Below are positions 12,934-64,000 of a stretch of 64,000 nucleotides of DNA, piece by piece. Position 1 is the stretch's first letter; each line of letters begins with the position of its first letter. This DNA is from an uncultured Bacteroidales bacterium (lineage in GTDB: Bacteria > Bacteroidota > Bacteroidia > Bacteroidales > Bacteroidaceae). The notes below the pieces were generated by a model. It did no database searches. It had not been told where the DNA came from and saw nothing but the letters and a program-made list of their open reading frames with translations. The position numbers and the translations under genes were made by a program. The stretch spans positions 1 to 64,000 of the forward strand of contig CADBXL010000004.1 of NCBI GenBank assembly GCA_902798615.1, read 5' to 3'.

Positions 12934-13977
12934 ATGAAGATTAAGGACATAGACCTCGTAAACATCTCCCGATTCAGGGCAGAGCACATGGGGATGGCGA
13001 TGTTATTCGTCATTCTCTTCCACGTTGGCTTGCCAAGGTGGAGTGATTTCTACGGCTTGCGAAGAATGGGCAACCTTGGCGTGGATATGTTCCTTTTCCT
13101 CTCTGGCATAGGTCTGTGGTTCTCATGGACAAAGACCATCCTTTCACGTACAGGCTCCCTCCCTACGGGGGATGGAGGGGGGAGAGTTTTTTTCTTCCAT
13201 AATTGGTTCTCCTTCTATATGCGCCGACTAAAGCGTATCTATCCCGTATGGCTTATAATAGCGTGTCTGTATTATATCCCCCGATTTGACGGTGTTCATT
13301 GGATTGACCTCTTCGGCGATATCCTCATAAACTGGGACTTCTGGCTTCACGATGAGTTGACTTTCTGGTATATCCCAGCCACGATGATGCTATATGTCTT
13401 CGCCCCTCCTTATATGGAACTGATACGTCGACACCCAATCTATCATTGGCTTGTGTTGGTCATGGTTATGTGGTGCATCCTCGTTCAATGGGTTACGCCT
13501 ATCCATCGTGCAGTCGGTCATATAGAGATATTCTGGTCACGTGTGCCAATCTTTTTTCTTGGTATCAATATGGGTGAGATGGTTCGTCAGAAGAAGAGCC
13601 TTGACGGACAATGTATATGGATGGTTTGGATAATGTTCCTAATGTCACTCTGCACAAGCATCTGGCTGGAACAGGAGATACATGGTAAGTTTCCTCTCTT
13701 TATAGAGAGAATGCTCTATATCCCGCTCACCGTTACTACTATCATTCTGCTTAATCGTATATTCCGACGTACTCCGCAATGGTTCAACCGAAGCGTGGCA
13801 TGGTTCGGAGCACTCTCGCTCGAAGCCTACCTTATTCACATAGAGTTTGTTCTCAAACCTCTTGAGAAGAATACTGACCTTGGCTATTGGATGACCTTCC
13901 TCATCACCGTTGCTGTCACAATGCCCCTTGCCTGGCTTTTGCATAAGGGCGTGGATTTCTTATTGAAATTGAAATGA
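12934..13977 (+). CDS. second acyltransferase 3 family membrane protein
   Basis: 347 residues with about ten hydrophobic segments. MGMAMLFVILFHVGLPRW has the conserved H after the first helix, and GNLGVDMFLFLSGIGLWFSW is typical of the family. It is predicted to acylate a cell-surface glycan. Residues about 74-84 (GSLPTGDGGGR) are encoded by a copy of the GC-rich repeat (13153-13186) found elsewhere in the window. They fall between predicted helices 2 and 3, in a loop that may tolerate insertion. Probably last gene of the operon, followed by a terminator. Confidence 0.85.
   Translation: MKIKDIDLVNISRFRAEHMGMAMLFVILFHVGLPRWSDFYGLRRMGNLGVDMFLFLSGIGLWFSWTKTILSRTGSLPTGDGGGRVFFFHNWFSFYMRRLKRIYPVWLIIACLYYIPRFDGVHWIDLFGDILINWDFWLHDELTFWYIPATMMLYVFAPPYMELIRRHPIYHWLVLVMVMWCILVQWVTPIHRAVGHIEIFWSRVPIFFLGINMGEMVRQKKSLDGQCIWMVWIMFLMSLCTSIWLEQEIHGKFPLFIERMLYIPLTVTTIILLNRIFRRTPQWFNRSVAWFGALSLEAYLIHIEFVLKPLEKNTDLGYWMTFLITVAVTMPLAWLLHKGVDFLLKLK
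13153..13186 (+). repeat. GC-rich palindromic repeat inside a coding region
   Basis: GGCTCCCTCCCTACGGGGG then ATGGAGGGGGGAGAG. It matches the intergenic copies at 38023-38072 and 38131-38167, and here it is translated within an acyltransferase gene in a different frame from the lipoprotein copies. Confidence 0.8.
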
Positions 13978-38022: not shown

Positions 38023-38072
38023 GGCCTCTCCCCCCGCCCTCCCCCGTAGGGAGGGAGCTGGAAGGCGAAAGG
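38023..38072 (-). repeat. GC-rich palindromic repeat, inverted copy
   Basis: On the minus strand it reads CTCCCTCCCTACGGGGGAGG and onward. 36 bases are identical to the copy at 38131-38167 in the opposite sense. It begins 8 bp after the second DUF4230 gene. Confidence 0.9.
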
Positions 38073-38130
38073 AAATTGATAAAGAAAATTTGTAGTTTAT
38101 AATTATTAAAGTATCCCTCATAGTCGAATC

Positions 38131-38167
38131 GGCTCCCTCCCTACGGGGGAGGGCGGGGGGAGAGGCC
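38131..38167 (+). repeat. GC-rich palindromic repeat, direct copy abutting a start codon
   Basis: GGCTCCCTCCCTACGGGGG then AGGGCGGGGGGAGAGGCC; it ends 2 bp before the ATG of the symporter gene. With 38023-38072 it makes a large inverted repeat with 36-bp perfect arms. Confidence 0.9.
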
Positions 38168-38169
38168 AT

Positions 38170-45142: not shown

Positions 45143-46438
45143 ATGAAAATACTGACGATATTAGCCTTTTTATCCTCCTGTGTTGTAGCAACGGCACAGG
45201 AGATAACTTATGACCTTACCAAGCAGCAGCCGAGATATTCTGAGGCTCAGGGCTATGGCTATGATGTTGTAGAGACTCCTACGGCAAAGAGCGTTTCTCC
45301 ATTCTATTTCTCAGCAAAGGTGCCTGATGGCAACTATCGCGTTACGGTTCGTCTTGGCAGTAAGAAACGTGAGGGCGAGACAACAGTACGTGCAGAGTCG
45401 CGTAGGATGATGGTTGAGAAATGTGTGACGAGAAAGGGAGAATTCCGGGAATTTTCATTCATAGTAAATAAAAGGAGTATTGACATTCCTTCGTATATAG
45501 GTATTGACGGCAAGCCTACACAGCCTTCGGTTGTACGTATAAAACCGGGAGAGGTAGGCTCTTTTACATGGGATGAGAAACTCACGCTTGAATTTAATGG
45601 GGCCTCGCCTTGTGTGCAAAGTATAAAGATGGAGCCAGACACAACGGCTACAAACATATTTCTATGCGGAAACTCTACTGTCGTTGACCAAGGAACAGAG
45701 CCTTGGGCTTCTTGGGGACAGATGTTTACGAGATGGTTTGTGGAACAGTCACTAAACACTCACCCCTCAACACTAAACATTAGCATCGCTAATTATGCAG
45801 AAAGCGGTCTTACAGCCACTTCTTTCATGGCTCAGAACAGGTTGGAGAAGATTCTGTCGGTTATAAGGGAAGGCGATTATGTGATTTGTGAGTTCGGGCA
45901 TAATGACGAGAAGGAAAAAGGTCCGGGAACAGGTGCTTGGTATCACTATTCTGTGGCGTTGAAGAAGTTCGTGGATATGGTTCGCGCAAAGAAGGGAAAT
46001 ATCATTTTCTGCACGCCTACCCAACGCAGATTCTTTGATGCAGAAGGGAAGATAAAGAACACTCATGGTGATTTCCCAGCAGCTATGAAGGCTGTTGCAG
46101 AGCGAGAAAATGTTCCTCTCATAGATTTGAGCGCTGAGACAAAAACACTCTTTGAAACTATGGGTGTTGAAGGCTCAAAGCATCTTCTCGTGCATTATCC
46201 TATGGGAACTTTCCCTTGGCAGCAGAAGAAATTCTCAGATAATACCCATTTCAATCCCTTTGGGGCATACGAGGTTTCAAAACTCGTTGTAATGGGGTTG
46301 AAAAGGCTAAATTCTCCGTTGGTACAATATCTTTCTTCCGATTGGAAAGACTTCTCTCCAAGTCAGCCAGATGATTGGCAAACATTCTATTGGCCTTTGT
46401 CACCGGTATATGATGGCAAGAAGCCAGATGGGAACTAA
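45143..46438 (+). CDS. rhamnogalacturonan acetylesterase-like SGNH hydrolase (CE12)
   Basis: 431 residues with signal peptide MKILTILAFLSSCVVATAQ. A beta-sandwich domain (about 20-165; EITYDLTKQQPRYSEAQGYG) precedes an SGNH core: IFLCGNSTVVDQG with the block-I serine (GNS instead of GDS), YVICEFGHNDE (block III), and FSDNTHFNPFGA with the catalytic Asp/His. This is the architecture of secreted CE12 enzymes that deacetylate pectin. The window shows no other pectinase. Confidence 0.88.
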   Translation: MKILTILAFLSSCVVATAQEITYDLTKQQPRYSEAQGYGYDVVETPTAKSVSPFYFSAKVPDGNYRVTVRLGSKKREGETTVRAESRRMMVEKCVTRKGEFREFSFIVNKRSIDIPSYIGIDGKPTQPSVVRIKPGEVGSFTWDEKLTLEFNGASPCVQSIKMEPDTTATNIFLCGNSTVVDQGTEPWASWGQMFTRWFVEQSLNTHPSTLNISIANYAESGLTATSFMAQNRLEKILSVIREGDYVICEFGHNDEKEKGPGTGAWYHYSVALKKFVDMVRAKKGNIIFCTPTQRRFFDAEGKIKNTHGDFPAAMKAVAERENVPLIDLSAETKTLFETMGVEGSKHLLVHYPMGTFPWQQKKFSDNTHFNPFGAYEVSKLVVMGLKRLNSPLVQYLSSDWKDFSPSQPDDWQTFYWPLSPVYDGKKPDGN

Positions 46439-50540: not shown

Positions 50541-53360
50541 ATGAAAAAGCTCATCTTATGTGCATCTCTTTCATGCTTGGTTATGATGAATTCCTGTCAG
50601 AGGGAAGAATTAGTGCCTGCTGACGAGAAGCCTGAATGGCTCGGTTCTACAATCTATGAGGAACTGGAGTCAGGGAGGCATCTTGAGGGGACTTTTCATA
50701 ACTATCTGCAGTTGGTTAAGGATCTTGGATATGATGAAGTTCTTGGCCGAACAGGTAGTAAGACGATCTTCCCTGCAAATGATGCAGCTTTCGAGGCTTT
50801 CTTCCAGTCAGACAATGCCTTTGGCGTTCACTCGTATGCAGAGTTGACCGGAGGTATGAAGAAACAGTTGCTATATACTTCCATGCTTGACAATGCGATG
50901 CTCACAGGTATGCTTTCGAATGTATCTGCCGATGATAATAACGTGAGTCGTGGCGTCGCCTTGAAACATGCTTCCAACCTAAGTATTACCGATACGATAT
51001 ATACTCTGTACTCTGGAGCTACTATGCCTCAGGGTAATTCCTATTGGAAAGGCTACTATAATAAGGGTATCAATGTAATATATGATGGAACAGTTCCTAT
51101 GATTGTTCACTTCACTCGTGAGCAGATGCTTAACAATGATATTACCGTGACGGGTGCTGATTGTGATTTTGGTATTCTGCGTGGTGAAAATGTAGGCGCG
51201 AGTGTTGACGATTCGCAGGGTGCATATATATTCGGCAATAAGGTAGTAAAGGGTGACGTAACCTGTTTGAATGGCTATATACATCAGGTGGATAAGGTCG
51301 TAGTGCCTCCTGGGAATGTAGGACAGGTACTCCGTAGTGAGAAAAACACAAAACTATTCTCACGTATGCTTGACTATCATTGTGCTCCTTACTTTAACGC
51401 CAATGCAACCAACTCGTATAACTCTTGGGCTATACAGAATGGTCGTGCGGTTTTGGACTCTATATTTGAGGTACGTTATTTCTCAAAGAAATCGCATGGA
51501 ACAGGTGGTACAACCCTCGATCCAAACGGTTCTTCTACGACAAACAAGCAGTTGCTTTGGGATCCAGGTTGGAATCAATATACTTCTTCTGCAATCTCCT
51601 TAGCAGATATGGGCGCTGTTCTTGTGCCAACCGATGATGTTTTGCAGAAATACTTCTGTGCTGGTGGTGATGGAGCGTTCTTCGTGGAGAACTACGGTAG
51701 GACAGGTCTTCCTAATACTCCGGAGAATCTTCCTGAGCATCTTGATACCATGTATGTGAAAGGAAAAGGCATTCTGACAACCTTTGTAAACAATTTGATG
51801 CAAAGTTCTTTCATTGAGAGTGTGCCAAGCAAGTTCAGTAAGATTCAGCAGAATGCATCTGGCGAGTTTATGGGACTTACAATCGCTGACCTTGCACGCA
51901 AGCAAACAGCAGAAGGCGAGAAATATGATATTTGTGTGGCAAGCAATGGAGTGGTGTATAAGCTCAATAGGATGATTGTTCCTGACGAGTATCAGTCAGT
52001 GCTTGGTCCTGCGGTTATATTCCCAGAGTATAGCATAATGAATTCCTTCGCACAGGATAAGACCAATGGAACATCTGCCTCTACATGGGGAGCTGACCTT
52101 TACTATTATTTGTTGGCGATGAAGTCTAAGTTCGCTTTCTTCCTGCCAACCAATAATGCCTTTGCCGGGTGCTATATCGACCCTGTATCACTTGGCTCTT
52201 CAACTCCTCGTGCACTTGAGTTCTATTCACATTGGGAGGCAAATAAACGAGGTGAGCTTGTAGAGAAAATCGGAGTGAAGGTTCACGATTACAATAAGGT
52301 GACGGGCGAGATATCTGCATCCATAAGGAACACAGTAGAGGATATCACAGCAAGCTCAAAGGACTATAAGTCTCAGGTTTATGATGTACTTCAGTATCAT
52401 ACGCTTATCCTTGATTCGTCAAATGTGGATCGCTTTGGTGAGAATCATTACTACCTCACTAAGCATGGTGGAGCAATACGTCTGGATGATTTTAGTAAGA
52501 CTGTTAATGGTAACGTTGTGACATTCACGGGTAAAGTGCGTGGTGGTGCTCAGTTGGATAACGGCGCCAAAGCTGCTAACATCACCCGAGGCTGGTATCC
52601 TAAAAAAGGTAATGGTTATACTTTTGCTCTTGATAATGTGATTCAGCCGTCAATAACGAGTGTATATGCGCTTCTGCATAAGTATGAGGATCGTTTTTCA
52701 GAGTTCCTTGATATGATATCAATCTTTGATGAGTCGGTGCTTTTGAGTTGGGCTGGTATTGCAGAGACAGCTGCTGTGGGCACATCACCACAGGAACGTT
52801 ATTTCGTTTTTTCGTCCAAAGGCGGATGTGCTCTTGATCAGAATGTGAACTTCTTCAATGGTTATAATTACACTTTCTTTGCACCTGACAATGCAGCGAT
52901 GGAGATAGCATATAACAATAACGGTTTGCCCCGTATCTCTGAAATCAAGGCAATCTTTGAGAAGTATCAGGGAAGTGAGGGCGACTATTCTGAAAGCGAG
53001 ATAAAGCAGGCAAAGGCAGATGTGCAGAAGAAATTGAATACGCTACGTGCCTTTGTGAGATACCACTTCCAGAACAATTCCGTGTTTGCTGATAATAAAG
53101 TGCCAAGAACCACATATCAGTCAATGTATTCATCAGAACTCGGTATTCCTGCTAAGATAACGACGGAAAGTACAGACGGCATTCTTACCGTTACAGATGC
53201 TACAGGTCACAGCATTAGGATTGATGCTAATTCCAAGGATAAGCTGGTGAACATGATGACTCGTGACTATGAGTTTGATGCGAAGTCGTCATCTGCAAAA
53301 AATATTAGTGTATCATCATTTGCTGTGGTGCATCAGATAAGTGAACCGTTGAAGTATTAA
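50541..53360 (+). CDS. multi-domain fasciclin lipoprotein
   Basis: 939 residues. Lipoprotein signal MKKLILCASLSCLVMMNSC with the lipid-anchored Cys at 19. Several FAS1 (fasciclin) domains show the H1-like motif TIFPANDAAFEAFF, FAFFLPTNNAFAGC and YTFFAPDNAAMEIA at about 75, 530 and 775, each followed by the closing strands near VLQYHTLIL or VRYHFQ. It is first in a locus with SusC and SusD genes, so it may assist binding of an extracellular ligand at the outer surface; the ligand is unknown. Its signal peptide lacks the GC-rich repeat seen in the two later fasciclin genes. Confidence 0.85.
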   Translation: MKKLILCASLSCLVMMNSCQREELVPADEKPEWLGSTIYEELESGRHLEGTFHNYLQLVKDLGYDEVLGRTGSKTIFPANDAAFEAFFQSDNAFGVHSYAELTGGMKKQLLYTSMLDNAMLTGMLSNVSADDNNVSRGVALKHASNLSITDTIYTLYSGATMPQGNSYWKGYYNKGINVIYDGTVPMIVHFTREQMLNNDITVTGADCDFGILRGENVGASVDDSQGAYIFGNKVVKGDVTCLNGYIHQVDKVVVPPGNVGQVLRSEKNTKLFSRMLDYHCAPYFNANATNSYNSWAIQNGRAVLDSIFEVRYFSKKSHGTGGTTLDPNGSSTTNKQLLWDPGWNQYTSSAISLADMGAVLVPTDDVLQKYFCAGGDGAFFVENYGRTGLPNTPENLPEHLDTMYVKGKGILTTFVNNLMQSSFIESVPSKFSKIQQNASGEFMGLTIADLARKQTAEGEKYDICVASNGVVYKLNRMIVPDEYQSVLGPAVIFPEYSIMNSFAQDKTNGTSASTWGADLYYYLLAMKSKFAFFLPTNNAFAGCYIDPVSLGSSTPRALEFYSHWEANKRGELVEKIGVKVHDYNKVTGEISASIRNTVEDITASSKDYKSQVYDVLQYHTLILDSSNVDRFGENHYYLTKHGGAIRLDDFSKTVNGNVVTFTGKVRGGAQLDNGAKAANITRGWYPKKGNGYTFALDNVIQPSITSVYALLHKYEDRFSEFLDMISIFDESVLLSWAGIAETAAVGTSPQERYFVFSSKGGCALDQNVNFFNGYNYTFFAPDNAAMEIAYNNNGLPRISEIKAIFEKYQGSEGDYSESEIKQAKADVQKKLNTLRAFVRYHFQNNSVFADNKVPRTTYQSMYSSELGIPAKITTESTDGILTVTDATGHSIRIDANSKDKLVNMMTRDYEFDAKSSSAKNISVSSFAVVHQISEPLKY

Positions 53361-53490: not shown

Positions 53491-56400
53491 ATGTTTAGTA
53501 TATTTCGACATATAAGCGAAAGGCCCATTCTGTGCGAACTTCTTGCCCCTTTATGGGGAAAGATGCCCGTAGGGCGGAAAGGGGTATTTTTCCTTCTCTT
53601 CCTCTTTCTTCCTCTGTTCTCTTATGCCCAGAATCGTGTTGTCTCTGGAACGGTGAGCGATGATATGGGACCTATCATGATGGCAAACGTAGTGGAGAAA
53701 GATGCGAATAATCGTATCATTTCCGCAACGCAGACAGATATGATGGGTAATTTCTCTATGGAGGTAAAGAACCCTAAGAACAAACTGGAAATCACTTACG
53801 TCGGTTGTAAGAAATACAGTGTGACGATAGGCGATAAAACAACGTTTGAGGTAATGCTTACCTCAGAGAGCACCAATCTTAAAGAGATTGTGGTAAAAGG
53901 AACGCATGGAACATCGGGAGGCCTGAATATTGCTAAGAAGGAAATAACAGTAGCACAGTCAACGTTCAATCTTTCGGAAGTAGAAGGAATGGCATTTACT
54001 TCTGCAGATGAGGCTTTGCAGGGCGAAATAGCAGGACTTGATATTGTAGCTAACTCAGGAAACCTCGGTGCAGGCACAACAATGCGTCTGCGTGGCGTTA
54101 CCACTATAAATGGTAATGCAGAACCACTTATCGTTGTTGATGGTAAGATATTTGACAATCCTGACAAAAGCTTCGACTTCCAGAATGCCTCAGAAGAAGA
54201 GTATTCATCACTATTGTCTGTAAATGTAGAGGATATTGCGAAGATAGATGTATTGAAGGATGCCGCTGCTACTGCCGTATGGGGAGCAAGGGGTGCAAAT
54301 GGTGTGATAGAGATAACCACCAAGCGTGGTAGTCGTGGAAAACCACGCGTGAATTTCTCGTATAAGTTCACAGGTACTTGGCAGCCAAAGGATTATGACC
54401 TTCTAAAAGGTGATGATTATACAATGCTTATCAAGGAAGAGTACTATAATCCTAATCAGTCGAATACTGCAACCTCAAATATACGTGAGATAAATTATGA
54501 CAAGTCATGGGCTGATTTTGAAAACTGGAACAATAATATAGATTGGGTGAAGGAGGTGACGAAATTCGGTCCGCAGCATTCTTACAACCTGAATATTACG
54601 GGTGGTGGTCAGAAGGCAACATTTCGTATCTCTGGTGGTTATGATAACCAGGAGAACTATATCATAAAGCAACATTTGGATCGTTTGTCAACACGTCTTG
54701 TACTTGACTATAACGTGTCAGATCGCATACGTTTTTCAACTAACTTTGCGTTGACATACACTGATAACCAAATGAACTACTATGATATAGTAAATCAGGC
54801 ACAGAAAATGGCGCCTAATATGAGTGTGTATAAGCAGGATGCATATGGAAATGATACAAACCAGTTCTATATAATGAATACTGTTGGATCACTTAATGAT
54901 CTGACTCCATACACAGGTAACTACTCTTCATACGAGCTTCGTTCTATTCAGGAACTGGGAAACCCGGTGGCAAATGCGGAACTATCATGGAAGAGAGATG
55001 AAACATATCGTATTACCCCAGATTTCAATATCAAGTATGAACTTTTGGGTACGGCCACAGGGCAGACGCGACTGACATTCAATGGTCGTGTGGACTTTGA
55101 TATCTATGCTCGAACGGTACCAGCATATGTACCTGCTGAGATAGCGTCAATAACATGGGATAGTTCGCCACTTCAGTATAATTTCTCAGAGAAAACAGAA
55201 TCCAATCGTCTGAAGATTGGTGCACTTGGTGAGTTTGTCTTTACACCTTATTTCAAGAATGAGGATATTTCTATGACTATGCTTGCTCGTTATGAGATGA
55301 GTACGCAGCGAAGTAACTCACAGTATGTGGCAAAGTACAATCTGCCAAACGGTATTACGTCTGTAACGTCAGAAGGTGCTTTGCTTTATACCACCATCCG
55401 AACCAAGACGTACAATGGATTGGGTGACGGCAGTTCACGTTCAAACTCACAGAACATGATATACAATGCCCACTTCTCCTATAAACAGCGCTATAACCTT
55501 GGATTCTCACTTCGTGCAGATGGTGACTCTAAGTTCGGCCCAAAGCAAAAATGGGCATATTTCCCAGGAGTTTCATTACGTTATAACATTTCGGATGAGA
55601 ATTTCTTTGAGCCTTTACGCAAGCATGTCTCAATGGTAGGTCTACGTGCTTCATGGGGTATCAATGGTAAGGCTCCAGATGCTGACTACCTTTTCTATAA
55701 TACATATTCAACAGGCACCGGCGCATACGGATCTGCTTCAAAAATGGATGGCCTGAGACTTGACGATCTTCGTTGGGAAAAGACTACATCATACAATCTC
55801 GGTTTCAATCTTGGTTTTCTTGATGATATTATTGAGGTCGATTTTGATTTCTATCATAAAGAGACGAAGGATCTATTGCAGAAAGTTGTGGCTATTCCTA
55901 CTACCACAGGTTATGCGAGCCTTGCATATCAGAATGTAGGTGGCATGAAGAATGATGGTTGGGAATTGAATATCTCGGGCAATAAATTCCTGAAAATAGG
56001 TAAATTCTCTATGAGTGCCGGTTTCAATATAGCCCAGAATTATAATGAGATAACAGAGATGGACGACCGTGTGCTCAATGCGATAAACTCAGATTGGATT
56101 GCTACTAAACGTGGCGAATTCCTAAATCGTGTTCAGACGGGTAATGCACTTGGTTCAATTTATGGTTTCCGCTATAAAGGTGTGTACCAGTATTCATTCG
56201 ACTATCTGAAGAATTATAATTCTGAACAGATGCAGAGTAATCCCGCATGGACAACTTCAGATTATGAGAACTGGATAAATTCGATGCTTGCTGATGGTAA
56301 GACTATGCCAGTTGTCACAGGTACTGATGGTAAGGTGGTAATGGATAACAATGGACAGCCAAAGCGCATTGTGTATAATTATAACTCTGGTGCTGCAACA

Positions 56401-56991
56401 TATACCTTCCAAGGTGGTGATGCCATATATGAGGATATTAATCACGACGGTCAGATAAATGCCCTTGATATTGTGTATCTTGGCAATTCTATGCCAAAGT
56501 TGCAGGGCGGCTTCCACCTGACGTTGCTATATGGTGGTTGGAATCTGAAGGCGCGTTTCACCTATCGTTGGGGTAACAAGATAGTGAATGCTGCACGTCG
56601 TGACCTTGAGTCTATGTCAGGTGCCTACAACCAATGTGCAACAGTGAATTGGCGTTGGCGTAAGGATGGTGATGTGACTATGATTCCGCGTGCTATGTAT
56701 GTGTATGATGATAATTCTGCATACAACTATCAGGGCTCAAGTCGTTTCGTTGAAGATGGCTCATTCCTCCGTTTTCAGAACCTTCAGGTGGGATATAATT
56801 TCCCAAAGAAAGATTTGAAGAAATATGGTTTGAATCAGTTGCAGTTCTATGTTACGATGAACAACCTATTCTGTTGGACAAAGTACTCTGGTGTTGATCC
56901 TGAGATTTCTGTTGGCGGATGGGGAGTTGCCATTGATAACAAGACGGCACGTTCAAAGTCGTTTACTGCGAATGTGGTAGTAGGGTTTTAG
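53491..56991 (+). CDS. SusC/RagA-type TonB-linked outer membrane protein
   Basis: 1166 residues. The N-terminus MFSIFRHISERPILCELLAP is followed by a repeat-derived stretch (LWGKMPVGRKG) and then the hydrophobic core FFLLFLFLPLFSYAQ. A CarboxypepD_reg-like domain (VVSGTVSDDMGPIMMANVVE) precedes the plug, with the SusC signatures LRGVTTINGNAEPLIVVDG and KDAAATAVWGARGANGVIEI. A 22-strand barrel follows and ends in F. It imports a ligand with the SusD partner immediately downstream. Confidence 0.93.
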   Translation: MFSIFRHISERPILCELLAPLWGKMPVGRKGVFFLLFLFLPLFSYAQNRVVSGTVSDDMGPIMMANVVEKDANNRIISATQTDMMGNFSMEVKNPKNKLEITYVGCKKYSVTIGDKTTFEVMLTSESTNLKEIVVKGTHGTSGGLNIAKKEITVAQSTFNLSEVEGMAFTSADEALQGEIAGLDIVANSGNLGAGTTMRLRGVTTINGNAEPLIVVDGKIFDNPDKSFDFQNASEEEYSSLLSVNVEDIAKIDVLKDAAATAVWGARGANGVIEITTKRGSRGKPRVNFSYKFTGTWQPKDYDLLKGDDYTMLIKEEYYNPNQSNTATSNIREINYDKSWADFENWNNNIDWVKEVTKFGPQHSYNLNITGGGQKATFRISGGYDNQENYIIKQHLDRLSTRLVLDYNVSDRIRFSTNFALTYTDNQMNYYDIVNQAQKMAPNMSVYKQDAYGNDTNQFYIMNTVGSLNDLTPYTGNYSSYELRSIQELGNPVANAELSWKRDETYRITPDFNIKYELLGTATGQTRLTFNGRVDFDIYARTVPAYVPAEIASITWDSSPLQYNFSEKTESNRLKIGALGEFVFTPYFKNEDISMTMLARYEMSTQRSNSQYVAKYNLPNGITSVTSEGALLYTTIRTKTYNGLGDGSSRSNSQNMIYNAHFSYKQRYNLGFSLRADGDSKFGPKQKWAYFPGVSLRYNISDENFFEPLRKHVSMVGLRASWGINGKAPDADYLFYNTYSTGTGAYGSASKMDGLRLDDLRWEKTTSYNLGFNLGFLDDIIEVDFDFYHKETKDLLQKVVAIPTTTGYASLAYQNVGGMKNDGWELNISGNKFLKIGKFSMSAGFNIAQNYNEITEMDDRVLNAINSDWIATKRGEFLNRVQTGNALGSIYGFRYKGVYQYSFDYLKNYNSEQMQSNPAWTTSDYENWINSMLADGKTMPVVTGTDGKVVMDNNGQPKRIVYNYNSGAATYTFQGGDAIYEDINHDGQINALDIVYLGNSMPKLQGGFHLTLLYGGWNLKARFTYRWGNKIVNAARRDLESMSGAYNQCATVNWRWRKDGDVTMIPRAMYVYDDNSAYNYQGSSRFVEDGSFLRFQNLQVGYNFPKKDLKKYGLNQLQFYVTMNNLFCWTKYSGVDPEISVGGWGVAIDNKTARSKSFTANVVVGF
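53545..53585 (+). repeat. palindromic repeat inside the susC signal sequence
   Basis: CCCCTTTATGGGG next to GCCCGTAGGGC and AAAGGGG, a nested palindrome. It is translated as PLWGKMPVGRKG between the start and the hydrophobic core. Confidence 0.6.
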
Positions 56992-57029: not shown

Positions 57030-58991
57030 ATGAGTATATTGCACAACATATTTCGACATATAACGTATTACTTTAGCATTCCTGCTCCTTCTCTACGGAG
57101 TGGGAGAGCGGGAGAGGGCGCTCTTCTCTTCTTTATCCTTTTATCTTTCACCTCATGTGTAGATACTGTCATTCTTCCTGATGACAAGACGGTGGAGGAG
57201 GATTTCTGGCAGACAAAGGCACAGGTGCAGTCAATGGTCAATGGTGCCTATACCTCAATGGCTTCTGAGGATGTGCAGAGGAAACTTATTATATGGCAAT
57301 GCCGTTCAGATGAACTTAATGTGAATACATCGCTGAGTATAAACGAACTTAATCAGTTTGACTCTAACAATCTTCAGACAGATAACCGTCACAATAGTTG
57401 GGCGTCACTCTATTCTGTAATCAACACATGTAACCTTGTCATATCAAAATCTGCAGAGGTCATGGATATAGATCCTAACTACTTAGAGGGTGACCATAGG
57501 AATGTGTTGGCACAGATGAAAGCGTTGCGTGGATTGTGTTATTTTTATCTCATTCGTGCTTTCCGCGATGTGCCATTGGTTCTTGAGCCTTACAAGGAGA
57601 GTTCACAGCAACTCAATGTTGGTCAGACGGCGGCAGGAGTTGTACTTGATTTTGTAATCTCAGATCTTGAAGAAGTAAAGAACGATGCTCTTTCAACAGC
57701 TAATGTGACTGGCAATGTGCAGAAGTATGGGTGCTTTACTCGTAATAGTATCTATGCACTCTTGGCTGATTGCTATCTGTGGAGAGCGTCAGTAAACCAT
57801 TCTATTTCAGATTATAAGCGCTGTGTAGAATTGTGTGATATGATAAGAGATGCGCGTGGCGTTGCAAGTAAGCGTTTTGGTAATAATAGCCAGTTTGATG
57901 ATGATGGATATAATCTAAATCTCTTCAGGAATTACTATCAGCCATTTGCTACAGGAAATGATGGTGAGTCGCTGCTTGAACTCCAGTTTAATGATAATAC
58001 TGCTCTTTGCAATGCTTATTACAAAAGCAGATCATCATCAAATGCCAAGCCTTGGTTTTATACCAATTCATACTATTCATCTATAAAAAAGAATACGAAC
58101 ATAGGCTTGAACGCAAGTGTTTTTAACCAGTTGCATTCAGGTGATGCTGTATCTGATATCCGTGGCTTTGAAAGTGTCTATAACTTCAATAATGGAGCAG
58201 AGGATGAGGTGATGATACGTAAATATGTTGGTCAGGATATAATTGGTGATGTTAAGGCAGATGCGCCATCAAATCGTTCATATTTAGGTTATAGGGCAAA
58301 CTGGATTGTCTATCGTGTGACAGATGTAATGCTGATGAAGGCTGAGGCTATGGTTCAGATTGCAAGTCTGATGGGTGAGGAAGTGAAAGCTTCTGTTTCT
58401 CAGATTGCAAATGCCGGTTCACTTCACGACTCCGTCTCAATTGCTAAGGGGGCATATTCTAAAGTACACGAGATAAGCAACTACCTTGTGACTGGTATGC
58501 GTCAGGTGCAGATTGTGAATACTCGTGCGCAGAAAGATGGTGTATCCCTGTATGATTCACTTGCATATAAACTCAGTGTTCAAGAGGCGGAAACTGCTGA
58601 TTTTGTGAAAGCTATTACAAAATATGTATCTTCGTTAGACAAGACATGTGAGGATTTGGAACTTGAGGTGATGAACGAGCGTGCGCGTGAGTTGTGCTTT
58701 GAGGGTAAGCGTTGGTATGATATGCTTCGTTATAACTATCGACGTATGAATGGCGTAAACTATACAACGCTTATGGTTGATATGGGAGATAATCAAGCAA
58801 GGAACAATGATAATTTCCTCGCTCTCATGGCTCGTAAATATACTAATAGAAACGGAACAGCACTCGTGGCAAATATCAAAACTGAGCCTTATCTTTATCT
58901 GCCTGTGCTGAAGTCAGAAGTGGAGATAAATACTCTGTTGAAACAGAATCCGGCATATAAGGATAGGGCTACAGCGGAGAAAAATTATTAA
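57030..58991 (+). CDS. RagB/SusD family nutrient-binding lipoprotein
   Basis: 653 residues from the ATG at 57030 (MSILHNIFRHITYYF). The signal peptide is unusual: PAPSLRSGRAGEG, encoded by a GC-rich repeat, sits before the core LLFFILLSFTSC with the lipidated Cys. The mature part has TPR-like helices and SusD markers: DDFWQTKAQVQSMVNGAYTS and VMNERARELCFEGKRWYDML. It forms the lid on the SusC barrel. No in-frame start exists after the repeat, so the repeat must be translated. Confidence 0.93.
   Translation: MSILHNIFRHITYYFSIPAPSLRSGRAGEGALLFFILLSFTSCVDTVILPDDKTVEEDFWQTKAQVQSMVNGAYTSMASEDVQRKLIIWQCRSDELNVNTSLSINELNQFDSNNLQTDNRHNSWASLYSVINTCNLVISKSAEVMDIDPNYLEGDHRNVLAQMKALRGLCYFYLIRAFRDVPLVLEPYKESSQQLNVGQTAAGVVLDFVISDLEEVKNDALSTANVTGNVQKYGCFTRNSIYALLADCYLWRASVNHSISDYKRCVELCDMIRDARGVASKRFGNNSQFDDDGYNLNLFRNYYQPFATGNDGESLLELQFNDNTALCNAYYKSRSSSNAKPWFYTNSYYSSIKKNTNIGLNASVFNQLHSGDAVSDIRGFESVYNFNNGAEDEVMIRKYVGQDIIGDVKADAPSNRSYLGYRANWIVYRVTDVMLMKAEAMVQIASLMGEEVKASVSQIANAGSLHDSVSIAKGAYSKVHEISNYLVTGMRQVQIVNTRAQKDGVSLYDSLAYKLSVQEAETADFVKAITKYVSSLDKTCEDLELEVMNERARELCFEGKRWYDMLRYNYRRMNGVNYTTLMVDMGDNQARNNDNFLALMARKYTNRNGTALVANIKTEPYLYLPVLKSEVEINTLLKQNPAYKDRATAEKNY
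57084..57121 (+). repeat. GC-rich repeat translated in the SusD signal peptide
   Basis: GCTCCTTCTCTACGGAGTGG then GAGAGCGGGAGAGGGCGC, a diverged copy of the repeat at 38131-38167, read as APSLRSGRAGEGA. Confidence 0.8.
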
Positions 58992-58993
58992 TG

Positions 58994-59034
58994 GCCTCTC
59001 CATCGCCCTCCCCCATATGGAGGGAGCTGCGCCC
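58994..59034 (-). repeat. GC-rich palindromic repeat, intergenic
   Basis: GGCCTCTCCATCGCCCTCCC then CCATATGGAGGGAGCTGCGCC, opposite sense to the copy at 59166-59202, just after the SusD stop. A further CTCACAGAGGGAGTAGG follows. Confidence 0.8.
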
Positions 59035-59121
59035 TCACCCTCACAGAGGGAGTAGGTACCTTTTAATCAAGGGCAGTTAGTAAATTTGTTATTCATAATT
59101 TGTAATTCATATTAGACAATA

Positions 59122-61374
59122 ATGCTTAGGATATTTCAAAATATGGTGAACGCTTTTCGCATTCCGGCTTCCTCCTTGCGGGGGAGGGCGGGGGGAGGGG
59201 CCGCAGCCCTTTTCCTTTCTTTGTTATGCTTTTCTTCCTGTAATAAGGAACCGAATGAATCTGACCTATATACTTTTACGGGACAGACGATTCAGGAATT
59301 TGTAGAAGAGGATGACAATCTCTCGCTATTTAGACAGATTCTTGAGAGGGCAAACTTATGGGCTGAGATGCGCACGTATGGTCAATATACCTGTTATGCA
59401 CCAAGTAACGAGGGTGTTATTGCATACGTTGATAGCTTATGGAATGACCCGAAGTCAACGGATGACAATGGCAATCCTGTACATAATGGTATGAGCGAGA
59501 ATTCTGTGAATGGCCTTACTGATCAACAGTGTAAGGAGATTGCCAAATATCATATCTCAACAATGACATATTTATATGCAGATTTGTCTGAAACTTCGAG
59601 TGCTGGCGCCAATGAAGTATTCACTTATCTCGGTCAGACTTTCAGTTCGGAGATATGCAACGATGGTTCTGTTTGTCTCGGTGGCTCTGCTATAGTGGAT
59701 AAGGATAATGACAGACACGATATAGAATTGGCAAATGGCTATCTACACTATATTAATAAAGTGATACCTCGCAATACTCAGACAATCAACGAGATGATGA
59801 AGAACCTCACGCAATATAAGATATTCTATGAGGCTCTTGATAAGACAGGCTTACTTTCTCTGCTTTCTAAGACAAAGAAAGATTTCAATAGTGCTATTGA
59901 CAATAATCATGGTCGTCCAGGGTCAAGCTGGGCATCAACAGAATTCTATGTGCCTACCGAGTGTAATATTCGTTACACTGTATTTGCAGAGGATTCTACT
60001 GTTATGGCTGCTAATGGTATTCGCACATTTGCAGATTTGAAGGCTAAATGTATAGAATGGTATAAGGATGCAGAGAACTGGTATCCATTACCAGAAGGTG
60101 AGAAGATAAGTACTGGCGATGACTACACCTATACATACAACGTTGTGAATATGTTTGTGCGTTATCATATCCTAAAGGCAGGTATGGCAACTTCAAAGTT
60201 ACTCTTTGGTTATAATGCTTCTAACGTAAACTGGAACTTCGCATTTGGAGGTGAACCGTTCGACTATTATGAGACATTACTGCCTCACACTCTGATGAAG
60301 ATATGGCAACCTCTATATCAGAAGGAGAATGGTGAGATATCAACAGGTTCAAAGACTGGTATATTCATCAATCGTTTTCGACAGCATAACACATTGACTG
60401 ATGAGGTCGGTACTATGGGTAAGGCCTATACACATCAGGTGCTTATTCCTGGTATACTTGTATATACTGACAGCCGCAGCAATATCAAAGCTCTCAATGG
60501 GTATGTACATGGTATTAATGGTATGCTTGTTTATAATGCAGACGTCCCTCAGAAAGTACTCAATGAGCGTCTGCGCATAGATACAGGCTCTATGCTCCAC
60601 GAACTTGCAAATAACGACATTCGATTTGCTACGGAAGCAGAGATTGCAAGTAAGAATCTCAATGGTTCTGCTGGTACTATGACACGTTTCCCCGTAGATT
60701 ATTTTGACAACCTGTATAGTTTCACTGGTACTTCATCTGGCATTTCTTGGTACACACAAGGAGCATGGCGTGCGTGGGAGGCTGACCAGTTGTCATTCTG
60801 GGGTGCATACGACTTCGCTGTGAAACTCCCAAGTGTTCCTACGGGCGACTATGAACTTCGTGTCATCTATCCTCCTATGGCAAACTCTGGACTTATGCAG
60901 TATTTTATAGGTACATCAAGAAGTGCAGCCTCAATGCAACCGCTTGGAGTGCCTTTTGATGCTCGCTATCCTAATTCATCGCTTGATGCTGACCGTGATG
61001 CTACAGGCTATATGTTTTCAACGGAGTTCTCAGACTATGGTGTTGCTTCCGACCTCGTAATGCGTAACCATAATTATATGCGTGCGCCTGCGAGTTTTTC
61101 TCGTGGAACCTACAATAGTATTAAGGAACGTGCCACATCTGCAGATCAACTTATTCAGACGATAAGTAATTGTTGCAGATATGAAGAGGGTTACGGAACA
61201 AGTATGATGCGCCGTATTCTCGGAACAATCCATCTTGATCAGCGTAATGACTATTGGCTGCGTTTACGTAACCTTATTCCAGAAGAGACCACTCTCGGTG
61301 GTTCATTCGACTTCCTTGAACTTGTACCGACAACTGTCATCAATGATGCGACAATGACGGAAGATTGGTATTAA
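59122..61374 (+). CDS. fasciclin-domain lipoprotein with repeat-bearing signal peptide
   Basis: 750 residues. MLRIFQNMVNAFR is followed by IPASSLRGRAGGGAA from a GC-rich repeat, then the core LFLSLLCFSSC with the lipid Cys (about residue 40). FAS1-like segments: LFRQILERANLWAEMRTYGQ with YTCYAPSNEGVIAYV (about 60-90) and a second around YKIFYEALDKTGLLSLLS. The C-terminal 200 residues form a beta-sandwich (TGDYELRVIYPPMANSGLMQ) possibly for ligand or glycan binding. Part of the SusCD locus. Confidence 0.82.
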   Translation: MLRIFQNMVNAFRIPASSLRGRAGGGAAALFLSLLCFSSCNKEPNESDLYTFTGQTIQEFVEEDDNLSLFRQILERANLWAEMRTYGQYTCYAPSNEGVIAYVDSLWNDPKSTDDNGNPVHNGMSENSVNGLTDQQCKEIAKYHISTMTYLYADLSETSSAGANEVFTYLGQTFSSEICNDGSVCLGGSAIVDKDNDRHDIELANGYLHYINKVIPRNTQTINEMMKNLTQYKIFYEALDKTGLLSLLSKTKKDFNSAIDNNHGRPGSSWASTEFYVPTECNIRYTVFAEDSTVMAANGIRTFADLKAKCIEWYKDAENWYPLPEGEKISTGDDYTYTYNVVNMFVRYHILKAGMATSKLLFGYNASNVNWNFAFGGEPFDYYETLLPHTLMKIWQPLYQKENGEISTGSKTGIFINRFRQHNTLTDEVGTMGKAYTHQVLIPGILVYTDSRSNIKALNGYVHGINGMLVYNADVPQKVLNERLRIDTGSMLHELANNDIRFATEAEIASKNLNGSAGTMTRFPVDYFDNLYSFTGTSSGISWYTQGAWRAWEADQLSFWGAYDFAVKLPSVPTGDYELRVIYPPMANSGLMQYFIGTSRSAASMQPLGVPFDARYPNSSLDADRDATGYMFSTEFSDYGVASDLVMRNHNYMRAPASFSRGTYNSIKERATSADQLIQTISNCCRYEEGYGTSMMRRILGTIHLDQRNDYWLRLRNLIPEETTLGGSFDFLELVPTTVINDATMTEDWY
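59166..59202 (+). repeat. GC-rich repeat translated in a fasciclin lipoprotein signal peptide
   Basis: GGCTTCCTCCTTGCGGGGGA then GGGCGGGGGGAGGGGCC, close to the intergenic copy at 38131-38167, read as ASSLRGRAGGGA. Confidence 0.85.
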
Positions 61375-61429
61375 GTCTCTTAGAAAAAGACTAATTGATA
61401 ATTATTAATTAATAAATGGATTATTAAGG

Positions 61430-63379
61430 ATGAGTATATTGCACAACATATTTCAACATCTAGTGAAAGGCTTTAGCGAAGAAAGCCGTCCACACCCCTT
61501 CTTTTATAAGATGGGAGGGGGAGTAGGTCTTTTGTTGGGCTTCTTTTCCTCCTGTTCTGATTTCAACGACTATAACACGGTGGGAGTGGATACAAATCCT
61601 TCTGCCGAAAAAACATTGTGGGAGAATATATCGGATAAGGGAGAGTTGAGCGACTTTGCGCAGGTTCTTCAGACTGTAGGATATGATGCAGTCCTGAATG
61701 CTCCTACAACCTATACTGTGTGGGCTCCTGTCAATGGAACATTTAATAAGGATTCGCTAATATCATTGGCGCAGAATGCTGCTACAAGGAAGAATGTGAT
61801 AGAACAGTTCGTATATGATCACGTGGCTAACTATTCGCACTTTGAGTCAAATCCAGCTGATACTGTGGTATATATGCTCAGTAAGAAACTTATACGCTTC
61901 TCTGGGAAAAATACTAGTAACCTCTCATTTGACGGTAAGGCTATTAACTGGGGTGGTAATGCCTTCAATACTCCGTCAAGCAACGGACTTCTCTATACCC
62001 TTAACGGTATGGTGCCTTTTCGTCCAAATGCCTACGAGAATTTCTTTACAGATAAGAGCCATTATGGTATAGCAGACTCGTATTTTAATGCGTATGTGAA
62101 GAAATATGAGAAAATAATCCTTGACGAAGATGCGTCTGTGAAAGGTGAGATTGTGAATGGAAATCAGGTGTATGACGACTCTGTTACCGTTACAACGAAT
62201 TCATTTGTCACGAGCAGTCAGCATCTCAATGCTGAACTTGATAATGAGGATAGTCTTTATACCGTCATTATTCCGACTGATGCTGCATGGCAAAAGGCGT
62301 ATGACAAGATAAAATCATACTATAAATACATCACTCCAATCAAGTATCAGAATCTCAGTAGTACCTCTACAGATTTCGCAGGGAAAAAGGGCGGTACATG
62401 TCCTACTACATCCACTGGTAAGGCCACTATTCTTGCAGCTAGTGCTGGTGTGGATGCTAATAATGCTGCTACTTTGAGCACAGCACCTTCCGATGCGGAT
62501 ATACAGGACACAAAGGCATATTGGACAGACTCTATAGCAAAGCGATGGATTGTTCGAAACGCAGCTTTCTCAGAAACAAACAGAAAGTACAATTCAAAAC
62601 TTGTGTCAGGCACAGCCTTTGTCAAGAATGACACTCTCTTTTCTACATCAGGTAATAAACTTACGGGGTTAGACAAGCTCGATGAGGTTACTGTGCTCAG
62701 ACAACAGTTGAGTAATGGGCATGCGCGAATGGTAAATGACTTTCCGTATCGTGCTTCGGAGACTTATGCGCCTGTGATAAAGACACGAACTCCTGGGCGT
62801 GTGGTGAGTACCAGCGGATATGGTTATGATAATTTCTATATGGAACGTTGGCAGTTTGACGACAGCTTCTGTAAGCTGGACGATGATGAGGAGAATCTGA
62901 AATATGTTCGTGCATCACTTCCGGAAGGTTCAAACTTCGCCCCCGAAATGGATTTCTATCTTCCAGATGTGCTCTCTACTACATATGATATCTATGCTGT
63001 GGTGGTGCCTGCGAAGGTTGACGGTTCAGGACTTCCATATACCTTGCGTTTCGATCTTCACTATACTGATGCAAGCAACCAACCGCAGACAGGACGTCTT
63101 GATGGAGAGACGCTTCAGACCACGATAGCAAAGATATCAAAGGTTCCTGCTTTTGTGAATAATCCGACGAAGGTCGATACGTTATATCTCGGCCGCTTCA
63201 CATTCCCTATTTGCTACTATGGCACTAAAGCTGCTCCCAACCTCAAGGTTATGAGTACATTGAGCTCGTTTAGTATTAGTAATAAAACAAAGTATGATGC
63301 ACAAATACGTATTGCAAACATCATCCTAAAGCCGAAAGATCTTGAGGATAATGAACAAAATGCGACAAAAGAAGACTAA
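61430..63379 (+). CDS. fasciclin-domain lipoprotein
   Basis: 649 residues. MSILHNIFQH is nearly the same start as that of the SusD protein; a degenerate repeat-derived stretch (RPHPFFYKMGGGV) precedes GLLLGFFSSC, the lipobox. One clear FAS1 domain follows: DFAQVLQTVGYDAVLNAPTT then YTVWAPVNGTFNKDSL and a closing LNGMVPF; a second, less clear, around 270. The C-terminal part (STTYDIYAVVVPAKVDGSGL) is a beta-sandwich like that of the preceding gene. An internal Met at residue 28 could be an alternative start. Confidence 0.8.
   Translation: MSILHNIFQHLVKGFSEESRPHPFFYKMGGGVGLLLGFFSSCSDFNDYNTVGVDTNPSAEKTLWENISDKGELSDFAQVLQTVGYDAVLNAPTTYTVWAPVNGTFNKDSLISLAQNAATRKNVIEQFVYDHVANYSHFESNPADTVVYMLSKKLIRFSGKNTSNLSFDGKAINWGGNAFNTPSSNGLLYTLNGMVPFRPNAYENFFTDKSHYGIADSYFNAYVKKYEKIILDEDASVKGEIVNGNQVYDDSVTVTTNSFVTSSQHLNAELDNEDSLYTVIIPTDAAWQKAYDKIKSYYKYITPIKYQNLSSTSTDFAGKKGGTCPTTSTGKATILAASAGVDANNAATLSTAPSDADIQDTKAYWTDSIAKRWIVRNAAFSETNRKYNSKLVSGTAFVKNDTLFSTSGNKLTGLDKLDEVTVLRQQLSNGHARMVNDFPYRASETYAPVIKTRTPGRVVSTSGYGYDNFYMERWQFDDSFCKLDDDEENLKYVRASLPEGSNFAPEMDFYLPDVLSTTYDIYAVVVPAKVDGSGLPYTLRFDLHYTDASNQPQTGRLDGETLQTTIAKISKVPAFVNNPTKVDTLYLGRFTFPICYYGTKAAPNLKVMSTLSSFSISNKTKYDAQIRIANIILKPKDLEDNEQNATKED
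61490..61527 (+). repeat. degenerate GC-rich repeat in a signal peptide
   Basis: CACACCCCTTCTTTTATAAG then ATGGGAGGGGGAGTAGG. It occupies the same place in the signal peptide as the copies at 57084 and 59166. Confidence 0.5.
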
Positions 63380-63385
63380 CGGAAT

Positions 63386-64000
63386 ATGAAGAATACTATA
63401 GACATAATACGAAGAGTGGGGCAAAGGCTCTTTTTCTCTGCTATAGCCGTGTCCTTTTGCACCAACATCTACGCTCAGGAAGTGGATGATGATGCATCTG
63501 GTGATGACGAGGTGGAGGTTGGCAAAGCTCCGAAGCGTACTCAGCAAGTCGATAAGAATACTATGGTGCAACTTGCTGGCATTGTAATAGATGACGCTAC
63601 GAAACTTCCTGTTGCCGGTGTGAGAGTTCAGGCTCTTGGTGACAATCGATATACGGCAATGACAAATGCTAAAGGTGAGTTTTATGTTGCGATTCCGGAT
63701 TTCTGTACCTCCCTCTACGTTAGTTCTCCTTCGTATATGGCACAACAGGTGGCCGTCAGAAGCAATGATACAATGCAGAGGGTTAGAATAAAACTGATTA
63801 GCAAGAAATTCAGGAATATGTATGTTGATGCTACAGATTATATGGCGTCTTCTACCTATAAAGTGAAGGGGGGGGGGATTGTTCTTGATGAGGAAATTCA
63901 TGCTAATCTCGGAGGTCATCTGCGTGCTGTAACTCGTTCAGGTGTGCTCGATGGTGGTAGTGCTATGTTCATCCGTGGACTAAACTCTATAAATGCTAAT
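63386..64000 (+). CDS. second SusC-type TonB-linked receptor, N-terminal part
   Basis: 205 codons to the window end. MKNTIDIIRRVGQRLFFSAI AVSFCTNIYAQ is a signal peptide; an acidic stretch (EVDDDASGDDEVEV) follows; LAGIVIDDATKLPVAGVRVQ is a CarboxypepD_reg-like domain; GGSAMFIRGLNSINAN begins the plug. A run of ten G at 63868-63877 encodes KGGG in the present frame; a one-base slip would truncate the protein. Starts 6 bp after the preceding lipoprotein gene, so probably in the same operon. Confidence 0.88.
   Translation, partial: MKNTIDIIRRVGQRLFFSAIAVSFCTNIYAQEVDDDASGDDEVEVGKAPKRTQQVDKNTMVQLAGIVIDDATKLPVAGVRVQALGDNRYTAMTNAKGEFYVAIPDFCTSLYVSSPSYMAQQVAVRSNDTMQRVRIKLISKKFRNMYVDATDYMASSTYKVKGGGIVLDEEIHANLGGHLRAVTRSGVLDGGSAMFIRGLNSINAN

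Follow-up and report, generated by a model that had tools for sequence, protein, structure and literature searches.

This study concerns short palindromic repeats in a 64,000-nucleotide stretch of DNA from an uncultured Bacteroidales bacterium (the window; G000:C4:1-64000 of the analysed genome G000), where they lie in frame in the signal peptides of four neighbouring genes for surface proteins: a SusC-like TonB-dependent receptor, a SusD-like lipoprotein and two fasciclin-domain lipoproteins (Fas1 and Fas2). Repeated hairpins of a kind that is usually intergenic stand in frame here, and neighbouring genes in this one cluster seem to have exchanged their export signals, with results that vary among species. 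The interpretation that we regard as probable is that these palindromes, which resemble repetitive extragenic palindromic (REP) sequences and their inverted doublets (REPINs), act like the palindromic elements of Rickettsia, at a locus where modules made up of the 5′ leader and the n-region were exchanged among genes. On the best reading, the palindrome termed family A is one of at least six REP/REPIN-like families in a clade of uncultured gut Prevotellaceae.

As a first-pass annotation of this DNA had proposed, a family A copy stands in frame ahead of the hydrophobic core and the lipobox cysteine in both SusD and Fas1 (Table 1), the SusD copy being diverged (E 0.018 and E 0.04 in two profile searches, and missed at E 0.01 in the six-family scan described below). 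No in-frame ATG, GTG or TTG occurs between the SusD copy and the cysteine, in agreement with the earlier statement that this gene has no later start codon, and read-through of the palindrome is firmly indicated. The same statement about Fas1 is correct for ATG and GTG but not for TTG, which is found in frame at 59176 (within the repeat) and at 59221 (in the core), and read-through is likely in this gene. Fas2 had been thought to carry the same element and actually holds another palindrome, of family H, in degenerate form; because an ATG lies inside this copy, translation may possibly start within it. In SusC, where a family B copy upstream of SusD had been overlooked, a start within the palindrome is likewise possible because family B has an in-frame ATG. 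The three intergenic copies reported earlier were all recovered, with the borders and strands given in Table 1, and a further family A copy lies at 13149-13186 within the called open reading frame (ORF) 12934-13977.

The genome of the host (3.455 Mb in 55 contigs, 94.75% complete) is rich in such repeats. The family A core, CCCTCCCTACGGGGGAGGGC, is present with up to three mismatches at five places in the window and in none of 100 shuffles, and a search of the whole genome returned 194 matches, against 0 for the reversed pattern. Family A measures about 45 bp per copy. Models of six families (A, B, D, E, G and H) were built on 1.18 Mb of G000 together with 1.10 Mb of a relative, G111, and a scan at a cut-off of E 0.01, with weaker overlapping matches discarded, gave 426 copies, distributed as A 93, B 22, D 48, E 40, G 17 and H 14 in G000 and as A 65, B 14, D 48, E 35, G 16 and H 14 in G111. 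The copies in SusD, Fas2 and MurB lie above this cut-off and hence outside the 426. Further repeats (K, Q, R and more) exist beyond the six modelled families.

At the level of the DNA sequence, the arrangement of the copies is that of REPIN doublets: same-family neighbours no more than 250 bp apart are inverted in 132 of 137 pairs (36 additional neighbour pairs are of mixed families), 261 of the 426 copies have an inverted same-family neighbour (0 of 33 for family G), and pairs in −+ orientation are spaced 40–99 bp apart in 90 of 109 instances. Of the 47 family A matches found at E ≤0.001 in 441 kb, 24 are intergenic by the gene calls; for 19 of them the right end falls no more than 15 bp from the border of a called gene. 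The variable base pair of the stem, scored in 129 family A copies with the stem pattern, is C–G in 100, T–A in 27, T–G in one and A–A in one; as this pair changes jointly, the stem pairing is kept, as would be expected of the hairpin of a REP sequence.

The expansion of family A is restricted to few genomes. Among 150 genomes drawn from the genus, matches with up to two mismatches number 220 in G111, 182 in G000 and 154 in G071, whereas none of the remaining 147 exceeds 28 and 113 of the 150 have no match at all; the SusD orthologues nearest to that of the window in this draw likewise come from G111 and G071 (87% and 84% identity, respectively). In a smaller draw, made without G071 and G111, family D has 111 matches in G000 and is absent from the other 59 genomes. 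Movement of the elements is suggested by family G copies nested in family A at several places, including coding DNA, where they are in frame (L043, C3:9757-9808; G111 m37:22111; G111 C9:25632). Different families occupy the same intergenic place in G000 and G111 at C4:92546, 100306 and 104180-104353 (L052, L053), and the palindrome-free gene for a GDSL-type hydrolase in the window has an orthologue in G111 that holds a family A copy in frame, so that an empty and a filled site are seen side by side. When all 361 copy clusters were considered, 151 (77 of G000 and 74 of G111) had flank matches in the other genome, comprising 62 filled sites, 24 sites that were empty by rule, 31 others and 34 without a joint. 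Inspection of all 24 rule-‘empty’ sites revealed no consistent target-site duplications, and some of these sites were partial deletions, shifted copies or places taken by another family.

In-frame copies are found well outside signal peptides. An automatic, home-made rule, based on an open frame and a codon-use score and excluding N-terminal cases in which an ATG follows the copy within 12 codons, classified 75 of the 426 copies as lying in frame in likely genes (53 N-terminal, 15 internal and seven C-terminal), so these repeats depart from the description of REP sequences as extragenic and seldom coding; the rule misfiles some rows, and it excluded six signal-peptide cases with a Met shortly downstream. 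Because cytosolic enzymes are among the 75, coding palindromes are not special to signal peptides. By the rule, the N-terminal copies comprise 16 in signal peptides and 37 others; no enrichment in signal peptides over other N-termini is claimed, since some rows of the list are misfiled and the rule does not handle both groups alike. For 25 of the 53, an inverted partner of the same family occurs within 300 bp upstream, so that about half of the copies read at gene starts are right arms of a doublet with the start codon between its arms.

As with the palindromic elements of Rickettsia, the copies occur in frame in the ORFs of conserved proteins. Among ten N-terminal cases submitted to Pfam, the domain begins one to five residues past the repeat peptide in five (type III pantothenate kinase, HAD hydrolase, PP-loop, formyltransferase and calcineurin-like phosphoesterase, the repeat of the formyltransferase being of family B with its own ATG); the domain of a RadC-like protein lies four residues past the repeat, and those of Sua5-like, TsaD, U32 and UvrD proteins lie further away. 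MurB (L053:7036-8082; C4:111036-112085) contains an in-frame variant copy (19.5 bits) that aligns to a 10-residue gap of the solved MurB 7orz. Copies in a Pif1-like helicase, an AMP-binding enzyme, an alpha-amylase-like protein and a U32 peptidase are common to G000 and G111. A UvrD-like helicase gene (L161:16284-18962) has three in-frame family A copies, one at the N-terminus and two in the C-terminal third. The earlier proposal of a Rickettsia-like coding insert tolerated by signal peptides is thus retained in so far as an in-frame palindrome precedes the core; it has to be widened from one element to several families and from signal peptides to the N-termini and interiors of cytosolic enzymes, and insertion alone leaves unexplained how modules of leader and n-region passed from one gene to another at this locus.

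These modules became apparent when the N-termini of SusC, SusD, Fas1 and Fas2 were compared in the window, in five related loci (L260–L264, of which L263 and L264 are taken to be those of G071 and G111) and in nine outgroups, the relatives having been retrieved via SusD as metagenome assemblies titled Prevotellaceae or Bacteroidales. The outgroup locus L290, in which SusD is cut by the contig edge and the SusC match is doubtful, was excluded from the outgroup identities and from the best-match comparison and was kept among the 35 outgroup signal peptides. A contig titled Roseburia (L301) also holds a SusD relative and is perhaps misbinned. In the clade of six, all 24 N-termini are open in frame from the Met to the mature part, and the median identity of the signal peptides by gene is 0.28–0.45 (0.88 for the best single pair, in SusC) compared with 0.83–0.95 for the next 200 residues; the corresponding values for the eight outgroups are 0.50–0.57 and 0.60–0.81. 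Matches to family A (seven), B (six) or H (three) at E ≤0.05, all on the plus strand, are found in 16 of the 24 clade signal peptides, three of them weak (SusD and Fas2 of the window and Fas2 of L264). Judged by eye, four of the eight unmatched signal peptides end in runs such as MLPLGGLGGF, which resemble another palindrome, and three have a common arginine-rich module. An inverted same-family partner lies upstream between genes for six of the signal-peptide copies (Fas1 of the window, SusC of L261, L263 and L264, Fas1 of L263 and Fas2 of L262), and mixed-family pairs are found at SusD of L261 and Fas2 of L264.

It had been stated beforehand that distant orthologues all carrying the stretch would mark it as ancestral. 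Outgroups that are 46–51% identical in SusD have instead short ordinary signal peptides, with a single weak match, to family E, among the 35, so the stretch is not ancestral. The exception to these short ordinary signal peptides is SusD of L269, with a palindrome-like stretch, PSPWGRKGWG, and a weak family E match. The suggested spread through the exported proteome is limited. The signal peptide of the upstream fasciclin gene, an internal control, is kept between G000 and G111, and 22 of 32 automatically called pairs of signal-peptide orthologues between these genomes retain at least 60% of the last 20 signal-peptide residues; the ten pairs below 60% include three from this locus and several apparent miscalls, and several of the 32 are membrane proteins or miscalls. 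This comparison, which supersedes a first one of 18 pairs, excluded pairs with less than 75% identity or without the same signal-peptide type called on both sides, a filter that drops the SusC pair of this locus.

For the comparison of modules, each unit consisted of the 40 bp upstream of the first Met together with the signal peptide. The closest relative of a signal-peptide region proved to be another gene in 20 of 24 cases, in 19 of them in another genome, whereas in the eight outgroups the closest match was the same gene in 32 of 32; the four same-gene best matches in the clade compare with about five of 24 for random choice. In SusC, the last 33 bp of the signal peptide (the tail) match orthologues in six of six cases and the heads in two of six, which places a break near the palindrome, and the tail match is favoured by SusC being the sole non-lipoprotein of the four. 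Over all 24 signal peptides, with ties split, the best match is to the same gene for 6.5 of the heads and 9.8 of the tails. A second SusC gene at the end of the window provides polarity: one type of signal peptide is found in five of the six genomes and appears to be native, and L262 has a leader and a family H palindrome joined to a native-looking end. Elsewhere in G071, next to a Y1_Tnp gene, the signal peptide of a further gene contains a leader and family H palindrome that are similar by eye (L319 1-708, minus strand; G071:C13). The leader was also considered as a dispersed repeat in its own right and rejected as such, since the 25-base start common to SusD and Fas2 occurs only there in the host genome, with up to three mismatches allowed.

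Table 1. Genes and palindromes of the window.
Feature	Position	Strand	Remarks
Family A palindrome	38023..38064	−	Intergenic; left arm of inverted doublet
Family A palindrome	38128..38168	+	Intergenic; right arm of the doublet, 2 bp from next called gene start
GDSL-type hydrolase gene	45143..46438	+	Palindrome-free
Upstream fasciclin-domain lipoprotein gene	50541..53360	+	Ordinary signal peptide, alike in G111 (internal control)
SusC-like TonB-dependent receptor gene	53491..56991	+	Domains Plug, CarbopepD_reg_2; signal peptide MFSIFRHISERPILCELLAPLWGKMPVGRKGVFFLLFLFLPLFSYAQ
Family B palindrome	53535..53586	+	In frame in SusC signal peptide; own in-frame ATG; 59 bits
SusD-like lipoprotein gene	57030..58991	+	ATG at 57030; SusD_RagB, SusD-like_3
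Family A palindrome, diverged	57084..57119	+	In SusD signal peptide, read as APSLRSGRAGEG
Family A palindrome	58993..59029	−	Intergenic, right after SusD stop; inverted partner of the copy in Fas1 signal peptide
Fasciclin-domain lipoprotein gene Fas1	59122..61374	+	
Family A palindrome	59160..59202	+	In Fas1 signal peptide, in frame as PASSLRGRAGGGA; 35 bits
Second fasciclin-domain lipoprotein gene Fas2	61430..63379	+	
Family H palindrome, degenerate	61490..61529	+	In Fas2 signal peptide; in-frame ATG at 61511; 8.9 bits, E 0.009
Second SusC-like gene, 5′ part	63386..64000	+	Continues beyond window; apparently native signal peptide

These observations are consistent with a mechanism in which the palindromes would spread as doublets and settle at gene borders, with their ends abutting a start or stop codon. 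Where a start codon lies between the arms, or where an upstream start takes over, the right arm would become coding, and in the SusC–SusD–Fas1–Fas2 cluster the copies would thus form the n-region of the signal peptides. An n-region needs arginine or lysine and no long hydrophobic stretch; signal peptides may accept the peptides of families A and B because these contain in-frame arginine or lysine and no long hydrophobic run. Modules comprising the 5′ leader, the start codon, the leader peptide and the palindrome would then have passed from one to another of these four genes and have been replaced from species to species, with mature parts that stayed alike, and ectopic recombination or template switching at the leaders and hairpins common to neighbouring genes may be what trades the 5′ ends. 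The presence, reading frame, family and doublet arrangement of the copies, the confinement of family A to few genomes and the pattern of exchange can be read from the sequence itself; the production of the peptides, the movement of the elements and this recombination step we infer from them.

A more far-reaching version is that the doublets are themselves movable export-signal cassettes, substituting for the original 5′ ends of genes for surface proteins and passing between those for SusC, SusD, fasciclin and further exported proteins, which we entertain tentatively. The spacer between the inverted palindromes of such a cassette might hold the leader, the start codon and the beginning of the n-region, and signal peptides would then be shuffled naturally, an idea that we put forward with the same reserve.

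A somewhat doubtful alternative is the capture of start codons only, by which palindromes at gene borders become N-terminal extensions once an ATG upstream of them takes over, and the likeness between signal peptides reflects a common pool of intergenic repeats and no exchange of modules. The position of the intergenic family A copies next to gene borders, the 25 N-terminal coding copies that are right arms of doublets and the presence of such extensions on cytosolic enzymes are in keeping with capture, which is harder to reconcile with the native-type signal peptide of the second SusC gene having been replaced in L262 and with a likeness of 5′ untranslated region and leader that extends beyond the palindromes: the strongest shared regions (92% over 159 bp and 94% over 113 bp) contain none of the six families. 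A function at the RNA level, in which border hairpins adjust translation or the stability of the mRNA and the peptide arises only incidentally, is unlikely. Internal in-frame copies lie far from starts, and the SusD copy remains in frame while folding more weakly than the consensus (−6.5 versus −9.5 kcal/mol), although the preserved stem pairing, the location of coding and non-coding copies alike at gene borders and the lack of a visible amino-acid constraint would suit such a role. Wrong joining of 5′ ends to genes by short repeats during metagenome assembly is very improbable in spite of the repeat-rich regions and of relatives that are titled metagenome assemblies, as every N-terminus of the clade is open in frame, the copies shared by the two genomes sit in unbroken coding sequence and ordinary sequencing reads are longer than repeats of about 45 bp.

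The interpretation of REP/REPIN-like palindromes acting like Rickettsia elements, with exchange of modules between genes, has to be weighed against several points. The fold energy of family A is no better than that of shuffles (z −0.04); this test was negative for family A, in two variants, and for family D, and positive for families B, E, G and H. In 34 coding family A copies, 12 synonymous and 37 non-synonymous changes give no synonymous excess (the ratios in 144 non-coding copies, in the three frames, are 47:141, 43:97 and 22:112), which indicates that the copies are young or that the peptide is unconstrained; selection on the repeat peptide is thus unsupported by this test. The two strongest shared regions being free of the six families, palindromes are not needed for exchange, and the tails of the three lipoproteins mostly score too low to place a breakpoint at the palindrome. 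The relatives are metagenome assemblies, gene starts and signal peptides were called by home-made rules, and the seeds of the family models came from G000 and G111, so that two of the six clade loci are not independent.

Nor was a mover found: a search that covered transposases of the Y1_Tnp type revealed none flanked by families A–H. The host, at 94.75% genome completeness, has two Y1_Tnp matches, neither with an A–H copy within about 1.5 kb at E 0.05, and both look broken (a TGA lies inside one, and the other covers positions 17–113 of 121). The family H copy found some 330 bp away from a Y1_Tnp match in G071 is part of the signal peptide of the next gene. A REP-associated tyrosine transposase (RAYT) as the mover of families A–H is therefore unsupported, with no RAYT flanked by these families found. 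The two broken-looking Y1_Tnp matches (L031 1395-2005 and L032 1355-1770) adjoin K, Q and R repeats, on both sides in L031 and upstream in L032, and these repeats and Y1_Tnp perhaps form a REP–RAYT pair of their own, apart from families A–H.

If this interpretation is true, it would add uncultured Bacteroidota, with several families together, to Rickettsia and Wolbachia as bacteria in which protein-coding palindromes are described. The locus would offer a natural experiment on the evolution of export signals, in which the same four mature proteins carry signal peptides that differ among six close species and are ordinary in the outgroups, and it suggests a route from intergenic repeat to coding sequence through a start codon within a doublet. 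It is also a warning that start sites are easily misplaced in such genomes. Among the matches listed, the titles and the beginnings of the abstracts contain nothing on signal peptides being shuffled naturally in bacteria, nor on protein-coding palindromes in Prevotellaceae; one listed paper concerns a MITE of Porphyromonas gingivalis (PMC4596501).

In comparison with known systems, the palindromes described here resemble three. Rickettsia palindromic elements (RPEs) sit in ORFs without breaking the frame (PMC3767692), and the elements of Rickettsia and Wolbachia share with the present repeats their dispersal as palindromes both between genes and within ORFs (PMC3767692, PMC2229807); the present repeats differ in belonging to another phylum, in their length (about 45 bp here versus 100–150 bp there), in forming doublets and in the exchange of signal-peptide modules among genes, and the likeness drawn here is one of behaviour. 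With REPINs, which PMC3116915 describes as inverted REP doublets linked to RAYTs, they have in common short, high-copy palindromes in inverted doublets. REPs are said in PMC12306157 to overlap coding regions rarely, unlike the coding copies found here; moreover, no RAYT was found beside families A–H, and family G forms no doublets. Finally, PMC2229807 reports in-frame fusions of small mobile sequences, together with a locus of Yersinia, YPO1552, where a Yersinia palindromic sequence/RU-2 partly forms a predicted signal peptide. The passage concerned describes one locus, whereas here a cluster of four genes seems to have undergone turnover of its signal peptides in six species.

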